From Nitrososphaerota archaeon (lineage in GTDB: Archaea > Thermoproteota > Nitrososphaeria > Nitrososphaerales > Gagatemarchaeaceae): a stretch of DNA of 64,000 nt. The translations under genes were made by a program, and so were the position numbers. Location: the NCBI GenBank assembly GCA_029785825.1, contig JAFLYY010000001.1, positions 899,374-963,373 of the forward strand, written 5' to 3'. Under the pieces are notes generated by a model. The model was not told where the DNA came from. It saw nothing but the letters and a program-made list of their open reading frames with translations, and did not search any database. Each line of letters begins with the position of its first letter. Within the stretch, counting starts at the first letter, position 1. This document shows, piece after piece, positions 3,946 to 27,150 of this stretch.

Positions 3946-5234
3946 GCCTTCGCCCCCTCTCTTGGGGCGCCGGGCCGCAGGAACCATTTCCACGCCGGGA
4001 CCACTTCCACCTCTCTCCCCCCCTCGCGGAAGACCTTCTCCTCCTTCGAGGTGACGACCGTGAGCCTTTCCGCCCCCAGCTCGCCCGCCGCCTCCTTCAG
4101 CGCCCCCACCTCCCTGTCGTAGGTGGCCGGGTCGGCGACACTCCATGCGGCCTGCACCAGCTCCGGCCTCCGCCCACCGACGACGAAGTCCACCTCCTTC
4201 CCCGTGGTCTGGCTCCGCCAGTACGACAACGCCCCCCCTCTCCGGACGAGGTCGACGAACACCTGGTTCTCGAGCTTCTTGGACGAGTCCCCCCCGACGA
4301 GGGCGAGGAAGCCGGAGTCGAGGGCGTAGACCTTGGGGCTCACCCTCCTTTCCTTCGGCTTCTTCGAAAAGGGATACGCCCTTTTTATCATGAAGACGTC
4401 TTCGGCGCCGTCCAGGTAGCTCAGCGCGGTCTGCCTTCCGAGCTTCAGCCCTTCGGCGCCGAGCCAGCGGGATATGGAGCGGGCCGAAAGCGGGCGGCAG
4501 GCCGAGCCCAGCACCGCCGAGACGAAGGCCCGTAGCAGCGGGAGGCTCCTCACTTTCAGCCTCTCGATCATGTCCCTCTGAACGACCGTGTCGAAGAGCT
4601 CCTGGAGTATCCTGTGCTTGAGCTGGGCCCCCTCGGCGAGGACCACGGCCGGGTACCCCCCGAATTCGACATACTCGTCGGCGAACGAGGCGAGCGCGCC
4701 CGCCTTCTCCGGGGACGTGAGCCCCTCAGCTTCGGCCCCCTTCGCCCTCAGGAGCTCGGCGAAGGAGAAAGGGAGGACAAGGGTGTTGAGGGCCCTCCCC
4801 CTGAGGACTGAAGGGAGCCTGTCCGTCGACAGCTCGGAGGTCGAGCCGGTGACCATCACCCCGTACTTCCCGGAGTCGTGCAGGGTCCTCACCCACCGCG
4901 CCCAGCTGGGGAACCTCTGGACCTCGTCGATGAAGAGGCGCAGATCCTTCGTCGGGTCAGGCCTGTAGAGCCTGAACACCGCCTCCTCGATCTTCGGCAA
5001 GTCGTCAGCCGTCATGCCTTCGAAGGCGACGTCCTCCCCGTTCACGAAGACCTTGTTGCTCGCCGGGAGGGGAAGGCCGTCCATGAGCTGGAGCATGAAG
5101 GTCGTCTTGCCCGCCCGCCGCGGCCCGATGATCGCGGACATGAAGCTCCCGTCCTCCACGGCCGCGTCTCTCTTGACGGCCCCCCGAGGAGCCGTCGCTC
5201 CCCGATATCGTCCGACCGCCAGGTCGATGTCCAA
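3942..5234 (-). CDS. AAA ATPase with DUF4143 C-terminal domain
   Basis: About 430 residues from a TTG start at 5234. The Walker A is GPRRAGKT (residues 37-44), Walker B is LRLFIDEVQ (98-106), followed by the sensor-like VMVTGSTSEL, and the C-terminal nuclease-like DUF4143 fold has D-x-n-VDFVVGG. These archaeal/bacterial ATPases are common accessory genes with poorly known function, sometimes described as toxin-antitoxin-like. A longer frame begins with ATG at 5309, but the TATA-like ATTATATCC near 5258-5266 lies inside it and 25-32 bp before the TTG, so a leaderless TTG start is preferred. The gene's 3' end is duplicated at 6380-6640. Confidence 0.8.
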   Translation of the reverse strand: MDIDLAVGRYRGATAPRGAVKRDAAVEDGSFMSAIIGPRRAGKTTFMLQLMDGLPLPASNKVFVNGEDVAFEGMTADDLPKIEEAVFRLYRPDPTKDLRLFIDEVQRFPSWARWVRTLHDSGKYGVMVTGSTSELSTDRLPSVLRGRALNTLVLPFSFAELLRAKGAEAEGLTSPEKAGALASFADEYVEFGGYPAVVLAEGAQLKHRILQELFDTVVQRDMIERLKVRSLPLLRAFVSAVLGSACRPLSARSISRWLGAEGLKLGRQTALSYLDGAEDVFMIKRAYPFSKKPKERRVSPKVYALDSGFLALVGGDSSKKLENQVFVDLVRRGGALSYWRSQTTGKEVDFVVGGRRPELVQAAWSVADPATYDREVGALKEAAGELGAERLTVVTSKEEKVFREGGREVEVVPAWKWFLRPGAPREGAKA

Positions 5235-11458: not shown

Positions 11459-11914
11459 CTAGATGAAGAGGGTGAGAGCGTTGGGATCTCTGGCGAGTTC
11501 GAGGAAGCCGGACGCACCGATCACGTCGTCGCACACGTCCACGAGTGCGTTCTTTTCCATCCCGTAGAGGTTCATGGTCGGCGAGCATGCGTGGATGTGC
11601 ACCCCGGCTTCACTGGCTCCCTTCAGCATGTCGTAGAGGCTCGGCATCCCCCCCTTCGCCAGGAGCCCTTTCAGCTCCTCGGCGGAGAGGCCCAGGTCGA
11701 CCGACGGCTTGATGCTCTCCGCGGCTCCTTTGGTCAGGAGCTTCATTCCGCCGAAGGTGAAGTAGATGTCGACGGGCATGTCTTGCGCGGCGGCCGTCGT
11801 GGCCAAGATGAGTGCCGGGTAGAGGCTGTCGGCTGTCCCCTTGCTCACCACCATCACGAGTTTCTGTTTTCCTCGCAGTGACTTTTCAGTCTGCGTCCCA
11901 CTAGTCTGTGACAA
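11459..11914 (-). CDS. DsrE-family sulfur-carrier-like protein
   Basis: A 151-residue DsrE/TusD-fold protein. KLVMVVSKGTADSLYPALIL is the first strand-helix of the fold, and VHIHACSPTMNLYGM carries the conserved cysteine (C110) that binds persulfide in active members. It ends LTLFI, and shares this ending, HACSPTM and the IYFTF segment with the DsrE2-like protein at 21947, so the two are paralogues. It is expected to pass sulfane sulfur to or from TusA or DsrC in the cytoplasm. The TTG start at 11914 lies 30-38 bp from a TATA-like TTTAAATAT. It is oriented away from the main dsr genes. Confidence 0.8.
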   Translation of the reverse strand: MSQTSGTQTEKSLRGKQKLVMVVSKGTADSLYPALILATTAAAQDMPVDIYFTFGGMKLLTKGAAESIKPSVDLGLSAEELKGLLAKGGMPSLYDMLKGASEAGVHIHACSPTMNLYGMEKNALVDVCDDVIGASGFLELARDPNALTLFI

Positions 11915-12052
11915 TGGGCAGCGGCACGTATTCGGATATCTGCATATTTAAAGTGCGCCAGGCCTCAGACCAGACGCCGAGCGCCGTCGGTTTCGATCCG
12001 AGCCTGGAGCAGGGAGATGCGCCGCGGGACCTGTGCTGTCGGTCTCCTCGAA

Positions 12053-13426
12053 TCAGCCTCGCGTGCCACGGAGGAAATGGTCGACCATCGCCCCGACGAA
12101 GTCGTAGGTGACAGGGTGCAGGTGCATGTAGTGCGCGTACGCGTTCCCGACGCATATCCCGTCCCGCCCCCCCACGATCCCGGTCCCCTTCTCGTAGGAC
12201 AGCGCGAGCTCGTATTCCTTCCCCAGGGTGATCCGCGAGTAGTGGAACTCGTGCCCCCGGAGCGTGGTCCCCGCCGCGGCTATGGGGGTGTCTTTCAGTA
12301 CTTTCGCGACCGCGTACCCGTGGGCCATGGGGCGCCCTGTGACCGTCGTGACCCCCTGGATCGCGCCGACCATGTCATACTCCTGGTTGTCGTAGGCCAG
12401 CGACTCGGTCAGGTACATCAGGCCCCCGCACTCGGCGTAGACGTGCCCTCCGGCCTCGACGAATCTCTTGACGTCGGACCTGAGCGCCTTGTTGGCCTCC
12501 AGCTCGCGGGCATATATCTCTGGGAAGCCGCCGCCGATGAAGAGCAGGTCCACATCCGGCAGGCTCTGGTCATTCTCCGGGTCCACGAAGGCCACGGAGC
12601 CCAGGGCGCCGAGCCTCTCGATGGTTTCTGGATAGTAGAATGTGAAGGACTTCCCCGTGAGCACCCCTGCCTTCACCGGCGTCGCTGTCCTGGGCGGTTC
12701 CCCCAACGAAGGGACCTGCAGCGCCCCTGACGCCTCCTTGGCGATGCCTGTCAGCTTGTCCACGTCCAGGGCTGAGACGACTTCCGGCCTTAGCACCCCG
12801 GTCAGCCGCGTCCCGTTGAATTCAGCCGCGTGAGTCAGGCCCAGATGCCTGTACGCCATGGCTTCCCGTATCCTGTCGTCCCTGAGTATGTGCCCGACCA
12901 CGGTCAGACCCTCGGCCTCGACGGCCCGCGTGAGCTTCTCCACCTGCCGTTCGACCAAGTTCGTCAGGATCGCGCCTGCGACGTTCACCCCCGGGTCGAA
13001 GAGCTTGAGCCCTCTCACCAAGGCCCCCGCGGTCCGGTTGATCCGTTCCCCGTCGACTACGAGGACGACGGGCGCGCCGAGAAGCTTTGCGACCTGGGCG
13101 GTGCTCCCCAGTTCCGACGAGCCGTCCACGCTGTCGTAGAGCCCGTGGTCGCCCTCGATGAGGGCGATGTCGCTGCCAAGCGAGCATTTGCAGAACCTGC
13201 TGACCACGTCGTCTCCCATGAGAAAGTAGTCCAGGTTTCTGCTGGGAGACCCGGACACCGACCGATGGTAGCTCGGGTCGGTGAAGTCCGGCCCGACCTT
13301 GAAGACAGAGACCTTGAGCCCCTTCTTTGAGAGCGCGTAGATGAGGGCCATGACCGCGAGCGTCTTGCCCGACTTGCCCTTCCACGAGGAGATCACGACC
13401 CGTGGAGGCGCTACGTCTGCTTCCAT
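12053..13426 (-). CDS. dsrN: CbiA-family amidase, probable siroheme amidase DsrN
   Basis: About 457 residues from the ATG at 13426, preceded by GGTGA 3 bp upstream of the start. The N-terminal ATPase domain has the P-loop KGKSGKT (residues 16-22) and ALIEGDHGLYDS; the C-terminal class-I glutamine amidotransferase domain has GGGFPEIYA and AECGG with the catalytic cysteine (C333). This is the architecture of cobyrinate a,c-diamide synthase. In dsr clusters the homologue is DsrN, which amidates siroheme for DsrAB, and two siroheme genes and dsrAB lie just downstream on the other strand, with no other cobalamin genes in sight. A role in B12 or F430 synthesis cannot be excluded. A longer frame to 13531 has no family similarity. 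Confidence 0.75.
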   Translation of the reverse strand: MEADVAPPRVVISSWKGKSGKTLAVMALIYALSKKGLKVSVFKVGPDFTDPSYHRSVSGSPSRNLDYFLMGDDVVSRFCKCSLGSDIALIEGDHGLYDSVDGSSELGSTAQVAKLLGAPVVLVVDGERINRTAGALVRGLKLFDPGVNVAGAILTNLVERQVEKLTRAVEAEGLTVVGHILRDDRIREAMAYRHLGLTHAAEFNGTRLTGVLRPEVVSALDVDKLTGIAKEASGALQVPSLGEPPRTATPVKAGVLTGKSFTFYYPETIERLGALGSVAFVDPENDQSLPDVDLLFIGGGFPEIYARELEANKALRSDVKRFVEAGGHVYAECGGLMYLTESLAYDNQEYDMVGAIQGVTTVTGRPMAHGYAVAKVLKDTPIAAAGTTLRGHEFHYSRITLGKEYELALSYEKGTGIVGGRDGICVGNAYAHYMHLHPVTYDFVGAMVDHFLRGTRG

Positions 13427-13589
13427 GTAGTCACCAGCTTCCCCTCGAAGTCTGGGCCCTCCGCCTGATAAAGTGAGCCTGGGACAGGAAGGCGTCCGCA
13501 GGAGTTCCGGATGCGACGGGGCCGTCCGCAACCCCCAGTCACGACCTCGCGTCCGGACCGTCGGCGCCTGTCGTCCAGTAGGGAGCAGT

Positions 13590-13623
13590 CTTATCTAACC
13601 GGCGTAGCGCGGCAGGAGAAGAC
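13590..13623 (+). promoter_or_regulatory. Leaderless promoter of DsrE-like gene
   Basis: TCTTATCTAA at 13590-13599 lies 25-34 bp before the GTG start at 13624, matching the TATA spacing used throughout this window. Confidence 0.4.
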
Positions 13624-14001
13624 GTGGCTTCGACAGGGGAGGAGAAGAAGGCGAGAAGGGTGGCCTTTCTGGCCACGATGGCACCGGCAGACACGCCGCG
13701 GCTGGAGACGATGCTCGGTTATGCGACGGCCGCCGCTGCGATGGAATACGAGACGCTGATATTCTTCGCATTGGATTCTGCCCTGGTCGCGAAGAAGCAG
13801 ATCTTTGAGAAGATGGACCAGAAGGTGAAGGACAGGATAAGGGAGTCCGTCAGCCTCGGCATAAAGCTCGACGTCTGTTCCGCCTCGGCCAATACGTTCG
13901 GGATAAAGAGCGAGGACCTGATAGAGGGGGTCCAGATCTCGGGGATCGCGTCGTTCTATTCGTATGCCCAAGACGCGGACATCGTGCTCAGCTGGAGCTG
14001 A
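13624..14001 (+). CDS. DsrE-family protein
   Basis: A 125-residue small protein with the DsrE fold: RRVAFLATMAPADTPRLETM, a central YETLIFFALDSALVAKK, and KLDVCSASANTFGI with a cysteine (C85) at the usual persulfide position. It differs clearly from the other two DsrE proteins of the window, so it may fill another slot of a DsrE-type complex. It starts at GTG 13624, divergent from the DsrN gene, and precedes the siroheme genes. The role in sulfur transfer is inferred from family and neighbours. Confidence 0.75.
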   Translation: MASTGEEKKARRVAFLATMAPADTPRLETMLGYATAAAAMEYETLIFFALDSALVAKKQIFEKMDQKVKDRIRESVSLGIKLDVCSASANTFGIKSEDLIEGVQISGIASFYSYAQDADIVLSWS

Positions 14002-15713: not shown

Positions 15714-16052
15714 TTGGGAGACGTGACTTATCCGGGAGAATACGAGGTCAACGGCAAGAAGATTTCGCTGGATGAAGACGGTTTCATCCAGAACCCGGAG
15801 CTGTGGGACGAGGCGGTCGCCGACTGGGTCGCCAAGAACCTTGCGGGCGTCCAGACGATGACTGAAGACCACTGGAAGTTCGTGAAGTACCTCAGGCAGT
15901 ATTGGGAGACATACGGAGTTTGCCCGCCCCTGAGGATGATCACCAAGGTCACAGGGATAACGCTGGAAAAGATGTACGAGCTGTTTCCAGACGGACCGGC
16001 CAACGGGGCGTGCAAGGTCGCAGGGGCTCCGAAGCCGACCGGGTGCGTCTGA
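15714..16052 (+). CDS. dsrC: DsrC, sulfur-carrier partner of dissimilatory sulfite reductase
   Basis: A 112-residue DsrC/TusE-fold protein. The flexible C-terminal arm has both functional cysteines, C100 and the penultimate C111, ten residues apart (ACKVAGAPKPTGCV), so it is a true DsrC rather than a TusE-like form lacking one of them. DsrC carries sulfur from DsrAB as a trisulfide and is thought to be reduced or oxidised at DsrK of the membrane complex. It starts at TTG 15714, with a TATA-like AATACTTATC at about 15665-15674. It stands directly before dsrA but appears to have its own promoter. Confidence 0.93.
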   Translation: MGDVTYPGEYEVNGKKISLDEDGFIQNPELWDEAVADWVAKNLAGVQTMTEDHWKFVKYLRQYWETYGVCPPLRMITKVTGITLEKMYELFPDGPANGACKVAGAPKPTGCV

Positions 16053-16183: not shown

Positions 16184-17425
16184 TTGCCTGAGGCAGGCGA
16201 ACCGGCCGCCGGGGACTCCGAGGACGAAGCCCTGAAGAAGGGGAGGGAGCTGCTTCGGCGCTACGAGACCGGCCCGTGGCCCAGCCACGTGTCTGAGATC
16301 AAGAAGACGAAGTACCCGATAGAGGCTTACGCGCGGGGCCTGGCGAACGGCCAGTCAGAGTGGCACGGCGGCGCCGCGAAAGTCAGGTACGTGTACACAG
16401 GGTTCATCGCCAGGCGGACGAAGGACGGAAAGAGCACGGAACTGCACTTCAGGGTCTATCAGCCCTCCGGCCAGTTCTACACGACGAAGGCGCTCCGGGG
16501 ACTGCTGGACTTCGCCGACGAGTACGGTCTGGGGCTCATAGAGACGACCGGCCAGACGGGCGGGATGATAATCTCGATGAAGCCGGAGCTCGCCGACCCT
16601 GCAGTGGACAAGCTCAGGACGCTGAAGACGGACATAGGGAACACGGGCGACACCTTCAGGGACTTCCCTTCGTGCGTCGGCCCGGCTCTCTGCGAGTACG
16701 CGCTGTATGACTCGCTGGCCGCAAGGGACCACTACATGACGTACCCGCCCATCTACGAGAACCTTGGGAACCAGATGTTCCCTTTCAAGGTGAAGCTCAA
16801 GTTCAGCGCCTGCCCGATGGACTGCTCCAGGGCGGTCCATAGGTCGGACTTCGGGTTCGTGGGGGTCTGGGAGGGCGCCCCTGAAGTCGACCAGACCCTC
16901 CTGAAAACGAAGGCGGAAGGCAAAGAAGTGGACGTCCCTGGCATCGTCCGAGGCTGTCCTTCGAAAGCCATCCAGTGGGACGAAGCGAAGGAGGAGCTTC
17001 GGATAGACGGCGACAGGTGCCAGAAGTCCATGAACTGCATCCGGCGAGCATTCCCCGCCATAGCGCCGGGTAAGAAGAGGAAGGTCGCGCTCCTAGCCGG
17101 CGGCAACTCCAAGGGGAGGTTCGGGCCGAAGATGGCGAAGCCGGTCACCCTCCTCGACGACTACAGGGACGCGAAGGACTTCGTCCTGAAGATCATAGAC
17201 GAATGGGCCGAGACGTCCCCCCACAAAGACAGGATAGGGGACATGCTGACAAAAACCGGGTTCAGCAAGGTCATGGACGGCGCCAAAGACACTCTCCCCG
17301 GGAAGTCGGTCCAGGGGCACGCCGTAGGCCAGACAAGGATCGTCAACAGCGCGGTGCTCAGCGACGACGAGAGGAAGGAGTACGCCGAGTGGGCCGAAGG
17401 GGTGGCCAGGGAGTTCGACGCCTGA
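16184..17425 (+). CDS. dsrA: Dissimilatory sulfite reductase subunit alpha, DsrA
   Basis: A 413-residue DsrA. The siroheme-4Fe4S motif is complete: C164-x5-C170 (CVGPALC) and C210-x3-C214 (CPMDC). The inserted ferredoxin domain has GCPSKAI (C258) and then C279-QK-S282-MN-C285, where canonical DsrA has C-x2-C-x2-C, so one cluster ligand appears replaced by serine. With DsrB it forms the cytoplasmic alpha2beta2 enzyme that interconverts sulfite and sulfide-level sulfur on DsrC. The TTG start follows a leaderless-type promoter. dsrB follows 7 bp after its stop. Direction of catalysis cannot be read from this gene alone. Confidence 0.95.
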   Translation: MPEAGEPAAGDSEDEALKKGRELLRRYETGPWPSHVSEIKKTKYPIEAYARGLANGQSEWHGGAAKVRYVYTGFIARRTKDGKSTELHFRVYQPSGQFYTTKALRGLLDFADEYGLGLIETTGQTGGMIISMKPELADPAVDKLRTLKTDIGNTGDTFRDFPSCVGPALCEYALYDSLAARDHYMTYPPIYENLGNQMFPFKVKLKFSACPMDCSRAVHRSDFGFVGVWEGAPEVDQTLLKTKAEGKEVDVPGIVRGCPSKAIQWDEAKEELRIDGDRCQKSMNCIRRAFPAIAPGKKRKVALLAGGNSKGRFGPKMAKPVTLLDDYRDAKDFVLKIIDEWAETSPHKDRIGDMLTKTGFSKVMDGAKDTLPGKSVQGHAVGQTRIVNSAVLSDDERKEYAEWAEGVAREFDA

Positions 17426-17432
17426 TGGCCGG

Positions 17433-18584
17433 GTGGCAGGATTGAGCAGTCCGTCAGAGAGGATGAAGAAGAGACTCCCCGTCCCCTACACCGACTTTCT
17501 GCCCGAGGAGATACGGCGGAACGTAGGGAAGTGGGCGGACAGGAGATTCCACGGGGAAGGGATAATCGAGCACATATCGAACACAGGCGAGAGCGTCTTC
17601 ACGGTCAAGGTCGGCTCGCCGCCGAACGTCAGGTTCAGCACCCAGACGCTGAGGAAGCTCTCAGACATCGCGGACAAGCATGGGATCGGCGCACTGAGGT
17701 TCACCAGAGCGGGGAACGTGGAGCTGCTCGCCCACAGCCTGGAAGGCGCGCTGGAGATGAAACGGTCCGTGGAGGGGCTCGGGTACTACACCGGAGGGTG
17801 GGGGAACACGCTCTGGTCCATAGGCTCCTGCACCGCTTACCTGACGTGCACCACCGCGGTGGTCGACTCGCCGTCGCTCACCAAGGTGCTGTATGACAGG
17901 CTGACGCCATACTTCACAGGCGAGGCGTCCTTGCCTGCGAAGCTGAGGATCAACGTCGGGGGGTGCCCCACGGGGTGCGGCGGCCTGGTCGCCGACATAG
18001 TGGTGATAGGGCACTACGGAGACGCTCCGTCCTACGACCCCGAGAAGATAAAGAGATGCCTGCCTATGAACGCGGACGCGCTCGACAAGGCCGTGCCGGA
18101 GCTCGTGATGGTCTGCCCCGTCAACGCGATCAGAGCGTACAAGAAACCGGACAACACGGTGGGGATCGACATCATACGGGACAAGTGCATAGCCTGCGGC
18201 AGATGCAGGGACGTCTGCGACCACATCACGTGGGACCAGAGCAAGATAGGGGTGTCTGTGCTTGTCGGGGGGAAGAGCAGCAACACCGGAGACGGCCCTG
18301 CCCTGGCCAGGGTGCTCGTGCCCTGGGTGCCGGCGAGGCCACCGGACTTCAGGGAGGTCGTCGCTGTGGTCCAGAAGCTGATAGACGTGTGGAAGAGCGA
18401 CGCAGGGCCCGGGGAGAGGCTCGCCGACTACGCCCACCGGGTCGGGCTGCAGGCGCTGCAGGAGACCATGCGCGTGCCGATAACAAGATGGAACAAACCG
18501 ACGGCCTTCGGCACCGGCTTCGGGGTGAGACAGTTCTTCCCCTCCTTTGCAGGCACCCCGCCTCGGGAAAGAGGAAGCAGGTGA
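17433..18584 (+). CDS. dsrB: Dissimilatory sulfite reductase subunit beta, DsrB
   Basis: A 383-residue DsrB (start GTG 17433; TTG 17442 is an alternative). Siroheme-region cysteines are C133-x5-C139 (CTAYLTC) and C178-x3-C182 (GGCPTGCGG). Many DsrB proteins instead have a lone first cysteine and a C-C-x3-C pair, so this subunit looks more DsrA-like at the cofactor site. The ferredoxin domain is intact: C228 in VCPVNAI and C252-x2-C255-x2-C258-x3-C262. It partners the DsrA encoded just before it. dsrM follows within 5 bp, so dsrABMK form one operon. Confidence 0.94.
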   Translation: MAGLSSPSERMKKRLPVPYTDFLPEEIRRNVGKWADRRFHGEGIIEHISNTGESVFTVKVGSPPNVRFSTQTLRKLSDIADKHGIGALRFTRAGNVELLAHSLEGALEMKRSVEGLGYYTGGWGNTLWSIGSCTAYLTCTTAVVDSPSLTKVLYDRLTPYFTGEASLPAKLRINVGGCPTGCGGLVADIVVIGHYGDAPSYDPEKIKRCLPMNADALDKAVPELVMVCPVNAIRAYKKPDNTVGIDIIRDKCIACGRCRDVCDHITWDQSKIGVSVLVGGKSSNTGDGPALARVLVPWVPARPPDFREVVAVVQKLIDVWKSDAGPGERLADYAHRVGLQALQETMRVPITRWNKPTAFGTGFGVRQFFPSFAGTPPRERGSR

Positions 18585-18588
18585 GGAG

Positions 18589-19488
18589 ATGGAGGGACAC
18601 GCGTACGCGCTGAAAGGCGCACGTGCCCTCCTCGGGGCGACCGCGGTGGCCGTCCCCGTCCTTCTTGCGGTGCTCTTCGCTTCTGATTCCATCGTCAACG
18701 CCCTCGTCTTCCTCGTGTTCCCTTACGTCGCGGCCTTGCTGTTCGTCGTGGGGCTGGTCTACGACGGCGCGGGCTGGCTCGCCCCAAGGCGGCTCACGGG
18801 CCTCAAGACGGTCGCCATCGTGCCGAACACCTTCAGCCGCGCTGGCACGGCGAAAGACATACTGAAGAGGGTCTTCGGGTTCTACACCCTGCCGAAGATG
18901 GAGGGGGACAGGACCCTGATCGCAGGTTCGGTGATGTTCCACTATGGTATGTGGGCGTGGATCGTCAGCCACCTCGTGCTCGTGCTCGGGATGTACACGC
19001 TCCCGTCTTCGCTCTATGACCCCGTCGGAGACTTCGTGGCGAGGCCGGCGGGGATCCTCGCGCTCCTCGGCGTCCTGGTCCTCACGGGGAGAAGGGTCGC
19101 GACCCCCAAGATGCGGTCGATAAGCTCGGTCGGCGACTACCTGCCTCTGGGCCTGCTGATCCTGATACTCTCGGCTGGACTGACTCAGGTCATGACCGGG
19201 GGGGTGGGGAACATGGACACGGTGGCGGCATGGCTGCTTTCGCTCCTGAGCTTCACCCCCGCCCCGGCCCTGATGACGGGCGTGAGCCCGCTGACGATGC
19301 TGTATGTGGTCCCGTCCTTGATCTTCGTGGCGTCGGTCCCCTTCAGCAAGATGGTGCACATAGTCTCCTACCTCTTCAACCCCACGGTCGCGAAGAGCAG
19401 CTATCGCGTGGGGGAGGTCGGTTTCCCCTTGGCGTCCGGCAAGGCGGGTCGCGGACCCGCACCCGGTGGTGGGCACAACGAGTCATAA
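18589..19488 (+). CDS. dsrM: DsrM-like membrane cytochrome b subunit (NarI family)
   Basis: About 299 residues from ATG 18589, which has GGTGAGGAG just upstream (the frame extends back to 18547 inside dsrB). Hydrophobic segments include LLGATAVAVPVLLAVLF, ALVFLVFPYVAALLFVVGLV, HYGMWAWIVSHLVLVLGMY, PAGILALLGVLVLTG and a C-terminal pair ending FSKMVHIVSYLF. Histidines in HYGMWAWIVSH and FSKMVHI are in the positions that bind heme b in NarI/DsrM proteins. It should exchange electrons between the quinone pool and DsrK. The last 23 bp overlap the DsrK-Rieske gene. Confidence 0.85.
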   Translation: MEGHAYALKGARALLGATAVAVPVLLAVLFASDSIVNALVFLVFPYVAALLFVVGLVYDGAGWLAPRRLTGLKTVAIVPNTFSRAGTAKDILKRVFGFYTLPKMEGDRTLIAGSVMFHYGMWAWIVSHLVLVLGMYTLPSSLYDPVGDFVARPAGILALLGVLVLTGRRVATPKMRSISSVGDYLPLGLLILILSAGLTQVMTGGVGNMDTVAAWLLSLLSFTPAPALMTGVSPLTMLYVVPSLIFVASVPFSKMVHIVSYLFNPTVAKSSYRVGEVGFPLASGKAGRGPAPGGGHNES

Positions 19489-21523
19489 GAACGAGTTCAA
19501 GTTCGGCGACACCTCGGCCGTCGAGCCCATCTGGGCGAAGAAGGAGCTCGTGCAGAAGCTCGGGGAGAGGACGGGGGAGGCGAAGGCGCTCGAAGACCAG
19601 GTCCAGGGGTTCAGGCTCGGCCTGAAGAGAGAGGTCGCGCGGAACAGGAACGTCAAGCTCGCCGTGGAGACGTGCGTCCACTGCGGGGCATGTCTCAACG
19701 CCTGTCCCACCTACATCTCGTCCGGGGACATCCGGAATTCGCCCGTCGGCAGAGCAGACCTGATAAGAAAGGTGGCCAAGGCAGACTCGCTGGCGGGGAG
19801 GGCGCTCGGCGACCTCGCGGGCGGGAAAAAGCTGGACGAGTCGGGCCTGAAAGACGTCGCCACGTACTACTATCAGTGCCTCGAGTGCAGAAGGTGCGGC
19901 GAGATCTGCCCGTTCGGGATAGACCAGGCGGACCTGACGAGGACCGTCAGGTCTGTGCTCCTCGACGTCGGGATAGTCGCAAGGTACCCGGCCACGGTCA
20001 TCGACAACGCGGAGAAGACAGGGAACAACATGGGGCTCCCTCCCCCCGCGCTGAAGGCGACCCTGGATTTCGTCAAAGAGGAGATCGAGGCAGAGAAGGG
20101 GGTCAAGGTCGACGTCAAGGTGGACGAGCCCGCCCAGGTGCTCCTCGTCCCGCCGTCGGCAGACTTCTTCTCCAACCTGGACACGCTGAAGGGATACATC
20201 TACTTCCTGCACTCGACCGGGGTCGACTATACCTTCACGACCGAGCATACCGAGGTCGCGAACTTCGGGCTCTTCATAGACGAGAAGCACCTGAGGATAA
20301 TCGGAGACCATCTGGTCGGCGTAGCCGAGAAGCTGGGGGTCAGCTACGTCGTCGCAGGCGAGTGCGGCCACGGGTGGAGGGCGTTCAAGAACTACGTCAT
20401 CCCGGAGCTCGAGAAGCGCGGGATCGAGGGCCTTCACATCTTCCACCTGGTGATCGCCGCCATGAAGGCGGGCGCGGTGGTGATCGACCCCGAGAAGAAC
20501 GGCGACAGGGCCTACGTCTACCAGGACCCGTGCAACTATGCGAGAGGAGGGGACCTGATCGACGAGCCCAGATACATCCTCAGGTCCGTCGTGAAGAACT
20601 ACCAAGACTCCCCGCACAGCAGAGAGAGGACGTGGTGCTGCGGCGGCGGGGGCGGCCTGCTGACCGACGAGCTGATCCCCCTCAGGCTCGAATACGCCAA
20701 GCTCTGGTACAACGACGCGCTGTCGGTCTCAGGCGCCCACGTGGTGAGGCCGTGCGCCATCTGCAAGGCGCAGCTCAACCACACGCTTCCCCTCCTGAAC
20801 AAGGCACAGGGCCGCAGCGTGACGTATTCCGGGATGATGGACCTGGTCTACACGTCCATCCCCGCCGGGCTCGGCCCGAAGGCCCCGCTCGGGGGCGGCG
20901 CGCAGCCCGGGGGGGCGCTCGAGTCCAGAAGGACGTTCCTGGAGCTGGCGCTGGGGGCCAGCGCGGCCCTCATGGCCGCCGGCGTCGCAGCTGCGGCGCG
21001 CCCGCTCCTGTTCCCTCCCGCGAGCCCCTCGGGGAGCGGAGCCGCAGCGGCCTCCTTTCCGAGGGTGAAGGTCGCCAACGTCTCCGACCTGAGCCTCAAC
21101 GCCCCTCTCGCGTTCAGCTACCCGCTCGGCAACGAGCCCAACATCCTGGTGAAGGTCGGCCAGAGGGCCGCCGGAGGCGTCGGGCCCGACGGGGACATCG
21201 TGGCGTTCAGCGCCATATGCCAGCACCAGGGGTGCCACTGGGGGTACCAGGCGACAGGGACGTCGCCGTCCTGCAGCTCCTCGTTCAAGGCCGCGGGACC
21301 GGTCGGGTACTGCTGCTGCCATGACAGCGTCTATGACCTGGTGAACGGCGGGAAGGTGATCGGGGGCCCTGCTCCGCGCCCCGAGCCCCAGGTGCTCCTT
21401 GAAGTCGATGGGACGACAGGCGACATCTACGCCACGGGGATGGGTCCCCCGGCGATCTTCGGGCACCACACCGGCTCTTCTGACGTCTCCTACGACCTGC
21501 AGGGCGGGACGCCCGTGGCCTAG
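19466..21523 (+). CDS. dsrK: DsrK-Rieske fusion protein
   Basis: A 685-residue fusion in one open frame. Residues 1-465 are DsrK-like: two ferredoxin motifs (C70-x2-C73-x2-C76-x3-C80 and C138-x2-C141-x2-C144-x3-C148), and a heterodisulfide-reductase CCG domain with C300, C356, C391-C392-G and C430-x2-C433 around a possible noncubane cluster. Residues 487-512 hold a twin-arginine-like SRRTFLEL and a hydrophobic helix. Residues 535-660 are a Rieske domain with C585-x-H587-x-G-C590 and C616-x2-H619. Inferred topology is DsrK inside, one anchor helix, Rieske outside. It starts at GTG 19466 overlapping dsrM. DsrK normally works on DsrC disulfide; a fused Rieske centre is unfamiliar to me and may replace the DsrJO side of the complex. 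Confidence 0.9.
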   Translation: MVGTTSHKNEFKFGDTSAVEPIWAKKELVQKLGERTGEAKALEDQVQGFRLGLKREVARNRNVKLAVETCVHCGACLNACPTYISSGDIRNSPVGRADLIRKVAKADSLAGRALGDLAGGKKLDESGLKDVATYYYQCLECRRCGEICPFGIDQADLTRTVRSVLLDVGIVARYPATVIDNAEKTGNNMGLPPPALKATLDFVKEEIEAEKGVKVDVKVDEPAQVLLVPPSADFFSNLDTLKGYIYFLHSTGVDYTFTTEHTEVANFGLFIDEKHLRIIGDHLVGVAEKLGVSYVVAGECGHGWRAFKNYVIPELEKRGIEGLHIFHLVIAAMKAGAVVIDPEKNGDRAYVYQDPCNYARGGDLIDEPRYILRSVVKNYQDSPHSRERTWCCGGGGGLLTDELIPLRLEYAKLWYNDALSVSGAHVVRPCAICKAQLNHTLPLLNKAQGRSVTYSGMMDLVYTSIPAGLGPKAPLGGGAQPGGALESRRTFLELALGASAALMAAGVAAAARPLLFPPASPSGSGAAAASFPRVKVANVSDLSLNAPLAFSYPLGNEPNILVKVGQRAAGGVGPDGDIVAFSAICQHQGCHWGYQATGTSPSCSSSFKAAGPVGYCCCHDSVYDLVNGGKVIGGPAPRPEPQVLLEVDGTTGDIYATGMGPPAIFGHHTGSSDVSYDLQGGTPVA

Positions 21524-21689: not shown

Positions 21690-21941
21690 ATGGCCTCGCC
21701 AACGCAGAAACCAGCGCTGTCACTCGACACGAAGGGCCTGCTCTGCCCAGCACCTGTCGTAAAGACGAGCCAGGCAGTCAAGCAGATCAAGGTGGGAGAG
21801 ATACTCGAAGTGCTCGCGACGGACCCCGGGTCGAAGCCGGACCTCAGCGCCTGGGCGAGAATGACGGGGAACGACCTCGTCGACGTGTCTGAAGGGGGGG
21901 ACCCGAAGGTTTACACCTTCCACATCAGGAGGGCGAGGTAG
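21690..21941 (+). CDS. tusA: TusA-family sulfur carrier
   Basis: An 83-residue SirA/TusA fold with the C-P-x-P signature at the first helix (GLLCPAPVVK, C19) and the EILEVLATDPGSKPDLSAWA segment normal for the family. The cysteine carries sulfur as a persulfide between donor proteins and acceptors such as DsrE or DsrC. It is followed 5 bp later by a DsrE2-like gene, the usual pairing. An ATG at 21683 in another frame is a shadow. A leaderless promoter precedes it. Confidence 0.93.
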   Translation: MASPTQKPALSLDTKGLLCPAPVVKTSQAVKQIKVGEILEVLATDPGSKPDLSAWARMTGNDLVDVSEGGDPKVYTFHIRRAR

Positions 21942-21946
21942 CCGGT

Positions 21947-22450
21947 TTGACGCTCGTGACCCCGCAGACCGCCGAAGCCGAGAAGGAGCAGAGGGCCAAC
22001 CACCTGGTCTTGGTGGTCACTAACTACACCCTCGACAAGCTGTACCCGCCGTTCATCCTCGCTACCACTGCGGCAGCCTCTGGCATGGCCGTCGACATGT
22101 ACTTCACGTTCTGGGGCCTCTTGGTCCTGGACAAGCGGAAGAAGAACATCAAGCTGGCACCTGTCGGGAACCCGGCGCTCCCGATGCCGAACATCATGGG
22201 GATGCTCCCGGGGATGACGAGCATGGCCACCAACATGATGAAGGGGAAGATCAAGAAGTACTGGCCGACCATCGCCGAGATGATGCAGCAAGCGAAGGAC
22301 CTGGGCGTGAAGTTCCATGCGTGCTCTCCGACCATGGGCCTCATGGGGATGAAGAGCGACGACCTCAACCCCATTGTGGATGGCGTCTGCGGCGCTTCGA
22401 CGTTCCTCGAGTGGGCTACTTCGCCTCGGACCGTCACCCTATTCATCTAG
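21947..22450 (+). CDS. DsrE2-like protein
   Basis: A 167-residue protein of the DsrE/DsrF-like (DsrE2) group, starting at TTG 21947. LVLVVTNYTLDKLYPPFILA and AVDMYFTFWGLLVLD form the first half; a Met-rich linker (PNIMGMLPGMTSMATNMMKG) is typical of DsrE2; VKFHACSPTM holds the conserved cysteine C126. TusA-DsrE2 pairs handle persulfide in many sulfur oxidisers and some reducers. It is a paralogue of the DsrE-like gene at 11459, sharing HACSPTM and the LTLFI/VTLFI ending but with a longer central loop. Confidence 0.85.
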   Translation: MTLVTPQTAEAEKEQRANHLVLVVTNYTLDKLYPPFILATTAAASGMAVDMYFTFWGLLVLDKRKKNIKLAPVGNPALPMPNIMGMLPGMTSMATNMMKGKIKKYWPTIAEMMQQAKDLGVKFHACSPTMGLMGMKSDDLNPIVDGVCGASTFLEWATSPRTVTLFI

Positions 22451-22956: not shown

Positions 22957-23697
22957 ATGGGCCTTCCCGTAGCCAACGAGCTCATCGACCTGGGGAGCAT
23001 CGTGGTCTTGGCTGTCGTCGTCGCCGGGGTGCTATACAAGATAAGGGGGGGCGCGATGCACCACTTCGACCGCTGGCAGGTGCTGAAGGCCCCCATGAAC
23101 GTGGTGGAGGCGGCAGCCCCCGCAGGGGCGGGGCTGAGGAGCTTCCCGACCGTCCTGTTCCGGGACGTGTTCGCCGCCAAGGTCCTGGACACGTGCAGCA
23201 GGCTGAAGCGCGCGTCGCACCTCCTCCTCTTCTGGGGCTTCGTGTCCCTCGCCATATCAACCACGCTGGCGTTCATCACGAATCCGACCAACGTGGTCCT
23301 CCCGTTGACGGACCCGGTGAAGCTGTTCGGGAACGCCGGAGGGATACTGATCGTGGCCGGGTTCGTCTTCATGTTCTACGTCAGGTACCGCGAGCAGGCC
23401 CCGATATGGCGCCTGACCCGTTCGGACGTCTTCATGACCACCCTCCTCCTGACAGTCGTGACGGGGTTCGTCACTCAGCAGGCGGTCTACGCCGCCGGCG
23501 GCTCGTTCTGGGTCTCTGACACCTTCTGGTTGCACATGATATTCGTGACGGTCCTGCTCGCGACCGCCCCCTTCACGAAGTTCTTCCACGCCATCTCGAA
23601 GCCCGTCTCGATCCTGCACGACGAGGTCGACGCCAGGCTGGGGAGGGAGCCTGCCATCCCTGTCGCGGGGGCGGGGAGCAAGGAGGAGTCGAAGTAG
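22957..23697 (+). CDS. NarI/DsrM-like membrane protein, AprM/QmoC-type anchor
   Basis: A 246-residue membrane protein with five hydrophobic helices (starting IVVLAVVVAGVLY, SHLLLFWGFVSLAIS, GGILIVAGFVFMFYV, VFMTTLLLTVVTGF, FWLHMIFVTVLLATAPF). Histidines in RASHLLLFW, WLHMIF and KFFHAI suit heme b binding as in the QmoC membrane half and NarI. It overlaps aprB by the TAGTG junction, so it is probably the quinone-linked partner of AprBA, replacing QmoABC, which is not seen here. This role is inferred from position; sequence alone only says NarI-like. The predicted promoter leaves a short leader containing a mini-ORF. Confidence 0.75.
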   Translation: MGLPVANELIDLGSIVVLAVVVAGVLYKIRGGAMHHFDRWQVLKAPMNVVEAAAPAGAGLRSFPTVLFRDVFAAKVLDTCSRLKRASHLLLFWGFVSLAISTTLAFITNPTNVVLPLTDPVKLFGNAGGILIVAGFVFMFYVRYREQAPIWRLTRSDVFMTTLLLTVVTGFVTQQAVYAAGGSFWVSDTFWLHMIFVTVLLATAPFTKFFHAISKPVSILHDEVDARLGREPAIPVAGAGSKEESK

Positions 23698-24149
23698 TGC
23701 CGACCTACGTCAACCCCAGCAAGTGCGACGGCTGCGGCAAGTGCGTGGACATCTGTCCAAGCGACATCATGCACCTTTCCCACAGCGTCTTCAACGGCAG
23801 GAAGGCGTACAACATCGAGCCGAACTACTGCTGGGAGTGCTACTCCTGCGTGAAGGAATGCCCCCAGCACGCCATCGACATGAGAGGGTACGCCGACTTC
23901 AACCCCCTCAACCACAAGCTGACCGTCCTGAGGGACAAAGAAAGGAACGTGGTGAGCTGGAAGCTGAAGTACAGGGACGGCACGAAGAACGAGTTCTCGT
24001 TCGCGATCCGCACCACCGCCTGGGGCTCGATCTCGCCTCCCCAGAGCCAGAAGGCCCCCACAAAAGAGCAGTTCGACTCCCAGCTCCTCGCCCACGAGCC
24101 TGAATACCTGAAGTCTGACAGAGGCCTGGTGACGGTGACAAAGAAATGA
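23697..24149 (+). CDS. aprB: Adenylylsulfate reductase beta subunit, AprB
   Basis: A 150-residue ferredoxin-type subunit. Two clusters are bound by C10-x2-C13-x2-C16-x3-C20 (CDGCGKCVDIC) and C45-x2-C48-x2-C51-x3-C55 (CWECYSCVKEC); the C-terminal tail that wraps around AprA is present (FAIRTTAWGSISPP). AprB passes electrons to the FAD of AprA in the cytoplasm. It starts at GTG overlapping the previous stop, and its own TGA overlaps the aprA ATG (ATGA), so the three genes are coupled. Confidence 0.95.
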   Translation: MPTYVNPSKCDGCGKCVDICPSDIMHLSHSVFNGRKAYNIEPNYCWECYSCVKECPQHAIDMRGYADFNPLNHKLTVLRDKERNVVSWKLKYRDGTKNEFSFAIRTTAWGSISPPQSQKAPTKEQFDSQLLAHEPEYLKSDRGLVTVTKK

Positions 24150-25978
24150 AGACGAAGTTCGTCGACAGCGACGTCCTCGTCGTAGGGGGCGGGATGGCCG
24201 GGTGCGGCGCGGCGTACGAGGCGAGGTACTGGGGGAGGGACCTCAAGATCGTCGTGGTCGAGAAGGGGAACATCGAGAGGAGCGGCGCGGTGGCCATGGG
24301 GCTCTCCGCCATCAACTGCTACATGGGGATGAGGTGGAACGAGAACACCCCGGAGGACTTCGTCAGGTACACGCGGAACGACCTCATGGGGCTCGTCAGG
24401 GAGGACCTGGTCTACGACATCGCGAGGCACGTCGACTCGACCGTCCACCTTTTCGAGGAGTGGGGGCTCCCGATAATATACGACGAACAGACGAAGAGGT
24501 ACAAGCGGGAAGGGAGATGGCAGATATTGATACACGGGGAGTCGTACAAGCCGATCGTCGCCGAAGCAGCCACCAAGGCCGCGACTGAGGTCTACAACAG
24601 GGTCATGATCACGCATCTGCTGAGGGACGCCCAGGACGGCAACAGGGTGGCGGGGGCGGTCGGGATCGGGGTGAGGGACGGCGCCTTCTACGTGTTCCGG
24701 GCCAAGGCGGTGATCGTGGCGGCGGGGGGCGCGACCCATGTGTTCAGGCCGAGGTCCGTCGGCGAGGGCGCCGGGAGGACGTGGTACTCGCCCTGGAGCA
24801 CAGGCTCAGCATATGCCCTGCTGGTCGAGGCGGGAGCCGAGATGACCCAGATGGAGAACAAGCTCGTCGTCACGCGCTTCAAGGACGGCTACGGCCCGGT
24901 CGGGGCGTGGTTCCTGGCCCTGAAGGCCAAGGCCTCCAACGCCTACGGGGAGGACTACGAGCTGAAGTACAAGGAGGAGCAGAGGAAGATCTACGGTGAC
25001 TACGTCGACGCCAAGCCGTTCCCCACCTGCCTCAGGAACGACGCGATGCTCAGGGAGATAAAGGCCGGGCGCAGCCCCATCTTCATACACACCGAGAACG
25101 TCTTGGACACCAGGGAGAAGGAGGAGCTCGGCCAGGAGGACTTCCTGGACATGACCATGAGCCAGACCATCGTGTGGGCCTCGCAGAACATCGACCCCAA
25201 GAAGAGGCCCTCCGAGCTCCAACCTTCGGAACCGTACATCATGGGCTCTCACGCGACCTGCTCCGGGGCCTGGACGAGCGGGCCCGCCGACCTTTCTTCA
25301 GGGGACTACTTCTGGGGGTACAACAGGATGACCACCGTGCAGGGGCTCTTCGGCGCCGGAGACACGGTCGGCGGCTCGGCGCACAAGTTCTCGTCAGGGT
25401 CATTCACCGAGGGAAGGATGGCCGGGAAGGCAGCGGTGGCCTACATCCGGGAGAAGCTCGCGGGGACCAGCCCGGCGTTCGCCGAAGGGAAGGTCGAGGC
25501 AGCCAGGGACGAGGTCTTCAAGCCGATGGAGACGTACAGCATGGGGAAGAACATGATCACGAAGGGGACCGTGTCCCCGTCGTACTTCTATGCGGACCAG
25601 GGGGTGGTGCGGCTCGAGAAGATAATGGACGAGTACGTCGGGGGATGGGGCGCCTTTTACATGACCAACGAGGTGCTGCTGAACAGGGGGCTGGAGCTGC
25701 TGACGATGCTGAAGGAGGACCTGGGCCACGTGGGGGCCGAGAACCTGCACCAGCTCCAACGCGCGTGGGAGCTCCAGCACAGGGTGTTGACGGCCGAGGC
25801 GGTCCTCCGCCATACGCTCTACAGGAAGGAGACCAGGTGGCCCGGCTACTGCTACAGGTCCGACTATCCCAACCTCGACGACAAGAACTGGCACGTCTTC
25901 GTCAACTCGAAGTACGACTCACGGACAGGCGAGTGGTCGATGTTCACCCGTCCTTATGTACAGCTCGTGGGCGGGTGA
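24146..25978 (+). CDS. aprA: Adenylylsulfate reductase alpha subunit, AprA
   Basis: A 610-residue flavoprotein of the fumarate-reductase/AprA family. The FAD-binding start is DVLVVGGGMAGCGAAYEARY; family-specific segments include RSGAVAMGLSAINCYMG, WGLPIIYDEQTKRY, GRTWYSPWSTGSAYAL and GSHATCSGAWTSGP, followed by LFGAGDTVGGSAHKFSSGSF. It reduces APS to sulfite and AMP or runs the reverse reaction. Length is slightly short for the family but all core blocks are present. sat starts at or just past its stop, giving aprM-like/aprB/aprA/sat as one operon. Confidence 0.96.
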   Translation: MKTKFVDSDVLVVGGGMAGCGAAYEARYWGRDLKIVVVEKGNIERSGAVAMGLSAINCYMGMRWNENTPEDFVRYTRNDLMGLVREDLVYDIARHVDSTVHLFEEWGLPIIYDEQTKRYKREGRWQILIHGESYKPIVAEAATKAATEVYNRVMITHLLRDAQDGNRVAGAVGIGVRDGAFYVFRAKAVIVAAGGATHVFRPRSVGEGAGRTWYSPWSTGSAYALLVEAGAEMTQMENKLVVTRFKDGYGPVGAWFLALKAKASNAYGEDYELKYKEEQRKIYGDYVDAKPFPTCLRNDAMLREIKAGRSPIFIHTENVLDTREKEELGQEDFLDMTMSQTIVWASQNIDPKKRPSELQPSEPYIMGSHATCSGAWTSGPADLSSGDYFWGYNRMTTVQGLFGAGDTVGGSAHKFSSGSFTEGRMAGKAAVAYIREKLAGTSPAFAEGKVEAARDEVFKPMETYSMGKNMITKGTVSPSYFYADQGVVRLEKIMDEYVGGWGAFYMTNEVLLNRGLELLTMLKEDLGHVGAENLHQLQRAWELQHRVLTAEAVLRHTLYRKETRWPGYCYRSDYPNLDDKNWHVFVNSKYDSRTGEWSMFTRPYVQLVGG

Positions 25979-25986
25979 CCCCGGCG

Positions 25987-27150
25987 ATGGCGTCAGCGCT
26001 CGGGGAACCCTATGGCGGCAGGCTGGTCGACCTCGCTGTCCCTGAAGGACGGGCCGAGGCCAGGCTGAAGGAGGCTGGCGAGCTCCCCAAGGTCGCTCCC
26101 TTCGTCGACTTCGTCTACGACGTCGAGAAGATAGCCGTCGGAGCATACTCCCCGTTGGACGGCTTCATGGACTCCTCGACCCTCAGGTCGGTGATAGCGG
26201 AGAGCCGGCTTCCAGGAGGGCTCCCGTGGACCATGCCGATCATCCTGTCGGTCCCCGGGGAGCAGGCCAGGGAGATCCGCGAGGGGAGCGAGGTGGCGCT
26301 GCTCGACTGGAACGGGAAGGCGTTCGCCACGCTCGCGGTCTCGGAGACGTACCCCCTCCCCAAGGACGAGCTGGCGAAGGGAGCGTATGGCACCACCGAC
26401 CCGAACCACCCCAACGTCGCTGACATCTACAACAGCTATGGCGATACAGCGCTGGCCGGGAGGGTGAGCCTCCTGAGGCGCCTGGAGCTCCCGACGGTCT
26501 CGCACGAGATGACGCCGAAGGAGACCCGCGAGCTCTTCAAGAGCAAGGGGTGGAAGAACGTCGTAGCCTACCAGTGCAGGAACCCTCCGCACACGGCGCA
26601 CGAGTACATCCAGAAGGTCTCGCTCGAGAACTCGGACGTCGACGGGCTGCTGGTCCAGCCGGTCATAGGCCGCCTGAAGAAGGGGGACTACAAGCCCCAG
26701 GTGATAATGGACGCGTACAGGCAGGTCGTCGAAGGATACTACCCCAAGGACAGGGTGGTCCTGTCTTCGCTCTCCATCACGATGCGCTATGCCGGCCCGA
26801 AGGCCGCCCTCTTCCTGGCGATAGTCCGCAAGAACTACGGGGCGACGCACTACATAGTCGGGAGGGACCAGGCAGGGGTGGGGAAGTACTACGACCCGTA
26901 CGCGTGCCACAGGGTCTTCGACCAGTTCGACATCGGCGTAATCCCCATGAGGTACATGGAGACGTTCTACTGCAGGGTATGCAAGGCCATGGCGACGGCG
27001 AAGACCTGCCCCCACCCTGAAGAGGACCATCTGGCGGTCAGCCAGACGAGGATGAGGCAGCTCCTCCAGGAGGGGAAGGAGCTGCCGACGGAGATCCTCA
27101 GGCCTGAAGTGATCGCGGTCCTCAAGAAAGGGGACGTCGTGCTGACCTGA
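25987..27150 (+). CDS. sat: Sulfate adenylyltransferase (ATP sulfurylase), Sat
   Basis: A 387-residue monomeric-type Sat. The nucleotide-binding motif QCRNPPHTAHEY (residues 196-207) is intact; the second motif reads GRDQAGVG (292-299) where most Sats have GRDHAG, so a usually conserved histidine is glutamine. C329, C332, C341 and a nearby histidine (CRVCKAMATAKTCPH) form the zinc site of archaeal and SRB Sats. The enzyme links sulfate and ATP with APS and pyrophosphate. ATG 25987 is chosen because GGGTGA lies 8 bp upstream; GTG 25975, overlapping the aprA stop, is an alternative adding four residues. Confidence 0.94.
   Translation: MASALGEPYGGRLVDLAVPEGRAEARLKEAGELPKVAPFVDFVYDVEKIAVGAYSPLDGFMDSSTLRSVIAESRLPGGLPWTMPIILSVPGEQAREIREGSEVALLDWNGKAFATLAVSETYPLPKDELAKGAYGTTDPNHPNVADIYNSYGDTALAGRVSLLRRLELPTVSHEMTPKETRELFKSKGWKNVVAYQCRNPPHTAHEYIQKVSLENSDVDGLLVQPVIGRLKKGDYKPQVIMDAYRQVVEGYYPKDRVVLSSLSITMRYAGPKAALFLAIVRKNYGATHYIVGRDQAGVGKYYDPYACHRVFDQFDIGVIPMRYMETFYCRVCKAMATAKTCPHPEEDHLAVSQTRMRQLLQEGKELPTEILRPEVIAVLKKGDVVLT

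Follow-up and report, generated by a model that had tools for sequence, protein, structure and literature searches.

DsrMK links Dsr-type sulfur metabolism to the membrane, and both its electron exchange and its energy conservation are still debated. In the DNA stretch analysed here (64,000 nucleotides of a Nitrososphaerota archaeon, below called the window), a dsrK gene continues in frame into a membrane anchor and a Rieske domain. This raises the questions of whether the fusion is a genuine gene, from where its parts were derived, and what a DsrK with a Rieske head could do. Such an arrangement suggests that sulfur metabolism in this archaeon has gained a connection to a new electron partner at the outer face of the membrane.

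The positions 19466–21523 of the plus strand form one open frame of 685 codons without an internal stop, extending from a GTG codon at 19466 to a TAG codon at 21521–21523, which agrees with the single frame reported in the first-pass annotation. The motifs described there were also located as claimed, namely both CX2CX2CX3C [4Fe-4S] motifs of the DsrK part (residues 70–80 and 138–148) together with the CCG-domain cysteines for the catalytic cluster (C300, C356, C391/392, C430 and C433), followed by SRRTFLEL at 487–494, a hydrophobic helix at about 491–515, and a Rieske domain with CQHQGC and CCCH. The gene is divided as follows:

19466..20860, plus strand: DsrK domain, residues 1–465, with two [4Fe-4S] ferredoxin motifs and the CCG cysteine-rich domain (Pfam/NCBIfam, motifs)
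20861..20923, plus strand: Gly/Pro/Ala linker PAGLGPKAPLGGGAQPGGALE, residues 466–486 (21 residues), absent from both parent families (alignment)
20924..21010, plus strand: twin-arginine motif SRRTFLEL and transmembrane helix, residues 487–515, the signal-anchor of the Rieske half (alignment, model, hydrophobicity)
21053..21520, plus strand: Rieske [2Fe-2S] domain, residues about 530–685 (Pfam/NCBIfam, PDB sequence matches to AioB and SoxF, Foldseek)
21218..21235, plus strand: Rieske box 1 CQHQGC, residues 585–590, with Leu changed to Gln at 588, directly following ligand His587
21311..21328, plus strand: Rieske box 2 CCCHDS, residues 616–621, with Gly changed to Asp at 620, directly following ligand His619

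A domain search of the translated protein, which had been proposed as a check in the first-pass annotation, identified Fer4_8, CCG (350–437) and Rieske (534–639), each above the Pfam cut-off. The NCBIfam model for DsrK yielded 321.5 bits, which is below its equivalog cut-off of 400 bits; no other DsrK from the host class reaches this value either (at most 353.6 bits), and the cut-off seems not to cover these archaea. The DsrK part of the fusion groups with DsrK in the tree described below and lies in a dsrABM operon. Beyond the end of a usual DsrK, which is cytoplasmic and without an anchor, it is followed by 220 extra residues comprising the Tat motif, the helix and the Rieske domain. All ligands of the Rieske cluster are intact (C585, H587, C616 and H619), as are the disulfide cysteines C590 and C618. 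The Rieske half scored 100.8 bits with TIGR02694, the model for AioB-type Rieske proteins (cut-off 95.65), but assignment to AioB was rejected because its ancestry and neighbourhood are of the bc type.

Because both halves have recognised homologues in the same frame, the frame is coding throughout, although long chance frames are common in G+C-rich sequence. The GC content at third codon positions is steady at 0.83–0.95 over the whole gene including the junction. Between 20800 and 21010, ATG, GTG or TTG codons in any frame occur only at 20819, 20834 and 20837, within the end of DsrK, and at 20972 in the middle of the helix. No start codon for a separate Rieske gene was therefore found at the junction in any frame, which rules out a model of two genes joined by one indel: for an artefact to produce this junction, a stop as well as a start codon would have to be lost, or a chimeric assembly would have to preserve two complete domains in frame. 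From these features of the sequence, we consider it very probable that the gene encodes DsrK, anchor and Rieske domain as one polypeptide, represented by a single genome. Because the full-length alignments A1 and A3 placed standalone Rieskes onto the DsrK part, the Rieske half and DsrM were modelled separately, with middling confidence.

No second case of the fusion was found among 400 genomes of the host class, 398 of the host phylum and 46 of the host family, the remaining 45 of which lack it, nor among 61 relatives, in the plasmids searched, or at 21 named archaeal DsrK loci covered by a peptide-pattern scan of GTDB r220 contigs, the scan by which Thermoplasmata were sampled. The DsrK matches from the phylum search showed ordinary DsrK ends at the readable loci, and 3 of 11 loci contained, in a simple reading, an in-frame break just past the start of the match. 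In the literature, represented mostly by titles and abstracts, no description of a DsrK–Rieske join was found. The first-pass annotation had named homologues consistently encoding two separate proteins, with a start near codon 480, as evidence against the fusion. The homologues are indeed separate but occur at unrelated loci, with DsrK in dsr operons and the Rieske in bc operons, and they are never adjacent with a start near codon 480. The fusion is thus a single-genome finding, which limits confidence.

The gene is part of a larger sulfur locus with the order DsrE2-like, DsrN/CbiA, DsrE, CysG-like, CobA, DsrC, DsrA, DsrB, DsrM, fusion, TusA-like, DsrE2, QmoC-like, AprB, AprA and Sat. As stated in the first-pass annotation, it adjoins dsrM, which lies directly upstream; the TusA-like and DsrE2 genes follow downstream, and no AioA gene adjoins it. 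Apart from DsrM, the following neighbours are relevant:

15714..16052, plus strand: DsrC with both C-terminal cysteines (CKVAGAPKPTGCV; PF04358)
16184..17425, plus strand: DsrA (TIGR02064, 331.9 bits; 59–71% identity to Thermoplasmata DsrA)
17433..18584, plus strand: DsrB (TIGR02066, 315.8 bits)
21690..21941, plus strand: putative TusA-like sulfur carrier, named by reading the sequence; similar ORFs lie beside dsrA in Thermoplasmata
21947..22450, plus strand: DsrE2 (PF13686)
22957..23697, plus strand: QmoC-like membrane subunit, membrane part only (NF038018, 68 bits, profile positions 177–358 of 360)
23697..25978, plus strand: AprB and AprA (PF12139; TIGR02061, 915 bits)
26029..27150, plus strand: Sat, ATP sulfurylase (PF01747)

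No DsrL was recognised among these neighbours, and no DsrJ, DsrO or DsrP at the locus. The first-pass annotation had suggested that the Rieske centre replaces DsrJO. This could not be upheld, because the archaeal DsrMK clade is devoid of DsrJOP (PMC10504309) and the Thermoplasmata relatives show only the same order dsrA-dsrB-dsrM-dsrK, and their DsrK stops at the position corresponding to residue 465. The only NrfD-family gene of the genome belongs to an acyl-CoA cluster at a distance of about 850 kb. Therefore, the Rieske domain is an addition which replaced nothing, and a P-side redox head has been added to DsrMK rather than swapped for DsrJO.

The two halves of the protein differ in ancestry. 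The DsrK half shares 61–71% identity with DsrK proteins of Thermoplasmata, all of which end at about residue 465, and in a tree of 26 sequences it was placed within Thermoplasmata (support 100/99), apart from the other DsrK of the host class. The Rieske domain was placed inside the bc Rieske clade of the host order in a tree of 25 sequences (97/96), but not in the group formed by the bc Rieskes of the host genus itself, and on a long branch of 0.99 changes per column. Its identity to the bc Rieskes of the host order is 53–63%, compared to 38–43% to Rieskes of the donor-type Thermoplasmata genomes, and with 58–59% identity it is not a copy of the other Rieske of the genome. Every close Rieske relative examined is encoded directly upstream of a cytochrome b, which is not the case for the fused one. 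Because the DsrK is of the Thermoplasmata type and the Rieske is nearest to the host order, the gene is most simply read as a chimera between a dsr operon that was acquired and a Rieske from the wider lineage of the host. New relative to the first-pass annotation is that the Rieske goes back to the cytochrome bc Rieskes of the host order and the DsrK is of the Thermoplasmata type.

The host carries a separate cytochrome bc operon coding for a cupredoxin-like protein (without a Pfam match), a Rieske protein, cytochrome b and a small membrane protein, and it also contains genes for a haem-copper oxidase and for TatC, so that an aerobic chain and Tat export should be available. Archaeal AmoA was detected in eight order-level relatives and in no genome of the host family, from which we infer that the order is Nitrososphaerales and the family a non-ammonia-oxidising one, perhaps UBA183/Gagatemarchaeaceae. 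Two UBA183 genomes with dsrAB have been reported (PMC10833072). The DsrAB and DsrK of the locus belong to the archaeal reductive-type clade (PMC10833072, PMC10504309).

The tip of the fused Rieske domain deviates from its relatives in a very restricted manner. Among 46 columns that are invariant in 22 bc Rieskes, the fusion retains 44; the two that differ are Leu588Gln and Gly620Asp, both of which immediately follow a ligand histidine of the cluster, and no other sequence deviates there. The Qo-docking tip signatures CxHLGC and CxCHG are consequently not matched, while the serine after box 2 is retained. The equivalent box of complex III touches cytochrome b through its His and Leu in the docked state (PMC9812224). 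AioB, whose structures were the best Foldseek matches of the modelled Rieske half, also differs at both positions (CPHKGC and CPCHFS in the PDB sequence matches). Because both residues following the cluster histidines are changed, the fused Rieske probably no longer serves the Qo site of a cytochrome b.

A second set of changes was found in the adjacent membrane subunit:

18589..19488, plus strand: DsrM, a cytochrome b of the NarI type; residues 1–31 form an additional N-terminal helix (PF02665, NF038037; NarI fold; alignment A2)
19303..19305, plus strand: codon of DsrM Tyr239, which replaces the third haem-ligand His, the equivalent of NarI His187 (alignments)

The model of DsrM showed the NarI fold and also contained the extra N-terminal helix. 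With 34–44% identity to Thermoplasmata DsrM, the protein is more diverged than the neighbouring DsrK (61–71%). Haem bD of NarI lies on the P side, adjacent to the quinol site. This haem is bound by His187 and His66 (PMC5338063). The DsrM from the window keeps three of the four haem histidines and has Tyr239 as the third, which is His in all 17 other archaeal DsrM; judged by sequence only, it thus deviates from the four-His pattern for two haems b. The alterations of DsrM and of the Rieske tip agree with each other, and at the level of sequence they support the rewired DsrMK complex suggested in the first-pass annotation.

The first-pass annotation had also placed the two redox modules on opposite faces of the membrane. 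Such an N-in/C-out topology is plausible, since the genome contains a TatC gene and internal Tat signals ahead of exported Fe-S domains are established (PMC5449189, PMC7317946). The SRRTFLEL motif aligns with the SRRxFLK signal-anchor of the bc Rieske relatives and has become internal in the fusion. An internal Tat signal behind a cytoplasmic enzyme of 480 residues was not found in the passages on internal Tat signals covered here. If the topology is true, it would be an unusual one, with a large Fe-S enzyme that folds in the cytoplasm sharing a single Tat-dependent chain with an Fe-S domain that is exported.

Based on these observations, we propose that a bc Rieske from the host's order was joined to a dsr operon that had come from a Thermoplasmata-like donor. 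The DsrK part would stay in the cytoplasm on DsrM and exchange electrons with DsrC, while the Tat signal-anchor would carry the Rieske head, already folded, across to the outer (P) side next to DsrM, where the head would serve as a high-potential electron port. Electrons from DsrC and reduced sulfur would then pass via DsrK and DsrM to the Rieske centre, and from there via a P-side blue-copper protein to the haem-copper oxidase, on a route that circumvents the quinone pool in part. We prefer the oxidative direction, since a Rieske centre of ordinary potential is too high for reducing the DsrC trisulfide. To this full mechanism, a Rieske-headed DsrMK passing electrons from DsrC to a P-side carrier, we assign a probability of about 0.42. 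Several points speak against it. DsrAB and DsrK are of the reductive-type clade, and sat and aprAB permit sulfate reduction, so that the usual direction would be reductive; the failure to recognise a DsrL among the neighbours, the missing Pfam match of the cupredoxin-like protein and the restriction to one genome also count against it. If the missing DsrM histidine means that the P-side haem is absent, the distance from the other haem to the Rieske centre may be too great for direct transfer. The wider idea that a DsrMK with a tethered P-side Rieske links DsrC redox directly to the high-potential part of aerobic respiration, be it as an exit past the quinones or by a quinol bifurcation in which oxygen respiration drives DsrC reduction, appears doubtful to us.

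The same genomic context leaves some room for a complex that has remained reductive, in which DsrMK would reduce the DsrC trisulfide with quinol in the course of sulfite or sulfate reduction, and the Rieske centre would only vent or sense excess electrons under oxygen. The reductive-type DsrABCMK with Sat and AprAB (PMC10833072) and the presence of a haem-copper oxidase and a bc complex in the same genome would fit such a role, but the missing DsrM ligand aligning to the haem bD ligand His187 of NarI would impair a purely quinol-driven function, and we regard this reading as unlikely. It is distinctly improbable that the Rieske half acts chiefly as an inert tether in the membrane, or that it was fused by accident and is now degenerating: a peripheral DsrK could gain from an anchor and the branch of the fused Rieske is long, but this domain has kept the full set of cluster ligands, its disulfide cysteines, the serine that follows box 2 and nearly all invariant positions, and decay is not expected to strike only two positions at the tip. 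Another scheme, which we judge to be more improbable still, is a quinol-bifurcating DsrMK, in which quinol would be oxidised on the P side with one electron going to the Rieske centre and the other via haem b to DsrK, such that aerobic electron flow would drive DsrC reduction in the manner of a Q-cycle. A bc-derived Rieske beside a haem-b membrane subunit in one complex would suit this scheme, but the Qo-docking tip is altered, and DsrM is of the NarI type, which has no known Qo site, and has likely lost a P-side haem ligand. Finally, a dsrK and a Rieske gene joined by misassembly or by a base error deleting the DsrK stop, as might be suspected from the single genome and from G5 and G7 runs at 20891 and 20909 in the G-rich junction, is very improbable, because a complete DsrK and a complete Rieske with its signal-anchor are kept in frame across a new linker, a base error would have had to abolish a Rieske start as well, and the Rieske half has its own specific tip changes. 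The gene is also located well within one assembled piece, a contig of 1.70 Mb in a genome that is 100% complete and consists of 8 contigs.

The preferred reading of a Rieske-headed DsrMK with outward electron flow may be compared with several known systems, and as a natural chimera with an altered docking tip and an altered DsrM haem ligand, the protein offers a testable case of rewiring between quinone and P-side partners. The archaeal DsrMK of Thermoplasmata, Pyrobaculum and Caldivirga, which are reductive and devoid of DsrJOP, have the DsrK sequence, the gene order and the ferredoxin and CCG motifs in common with it, but their DsrK ends without anchor and Rieske domain, and their DsrM retains the complete set of four haem histidines and lacks the additional helix at the N-terminus. 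Bacterial DsrMKJOP likewise has a P-side redox module on the DsrMK complex, but in the form of separate subunits (tri-haem DsrJ and ferredoxin DsrO) with the NrfD-type DsrP, whereas the Rieske is covalently attached to DsrK here. The Rieske proteins of Nitrososphaerales cytochrome bc complexes share the Tat signal-anchor, the cluster ligands and the C-terminal region with the fused domain, which differs in being joined to DsrK, in having no adjoining cytochrome b gene, and in showing CQHQGC and CCCHDS instead of CQHLGC and C[PC]CHG. The Rieske subunit AioB of arsenite oxidase, the best structural and NCBIfam match, also is devoid of Leu and Gly after the cluster histidines and has no cytochrome b partner, but it is a small single protein associated with a molybdenum subunit and not with DsrK. 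A weak Foldseek match of DsrM (E 5.7e-3) was to EtfD of M. smegmatis (PDB 9ojn), which combines a DsrM-like membrane part and an HdrD/DsrK-like part in one chain; EtfD has no Rieske domain, while in the window DsrM is separate and DsrK bears the Rieske. The actinobacterial three-helix Rieske proteins and polytopic polyferredoxins likewise contain an internal Tat signal before an exported cofactor domain (PMC5449189), but in these dual Sec-Tat proteins the signal is preceded by Sec-inserted helices, and in the fusion by the 480 residues of DsrK.

The genome of the host contains nine matches to the Rieske family. One of these (locus L008, C1:621563-624769) adjoins a gene for another cytochrome b, a distant one that shows 28% identity. 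DsrM, the NarI-type cytochrome b encoded directly before the fusion gene, carries a tyrosine at the codon at window 19303-19305, where a histidine is present in all 17 other archaeal DsrM proteins examined, and it also possesses an additional helix at its N-terminal end (window ~18589-18681).

Three Nitrososphaeria relatives (L058, L059 and L060) contain, besides the true dsrK, an extra DsrK-like gene of 24-27% identity, which is located between dsrA and the true dsrK and is divergently transcribed. Further along the window, at 22957-25978, lie a QmoC-like membrane domain and, directly downstream of it, the aprBA genes; neither QmoA nor QmoB was recognised adjoining this segment. Similar QmoC-AprB-AprA sets are found in L059 and in a further compared locus, L077.

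Reading from translations only, we observed a pair of similar transposase-like genes (46072-46938 and 60819-61715), both of which lie among clustered genes for glycosyltransferases and polysaccharides. The tRNA-Asp (anticodon atc) called by ARAGORN at 5070-5165 lies within a long reverse-strand ORF and is probably a false call.

The dsr genes are flanked by three DsrE-family proteins and one TusA-like carrier (window 11459-14001 and 21690-22450), a combination frequently associated with sulfur oxidation. In contrast to this oxidation-associated mix nearby, the DsrAB of the window is of the reductive archaeal type.
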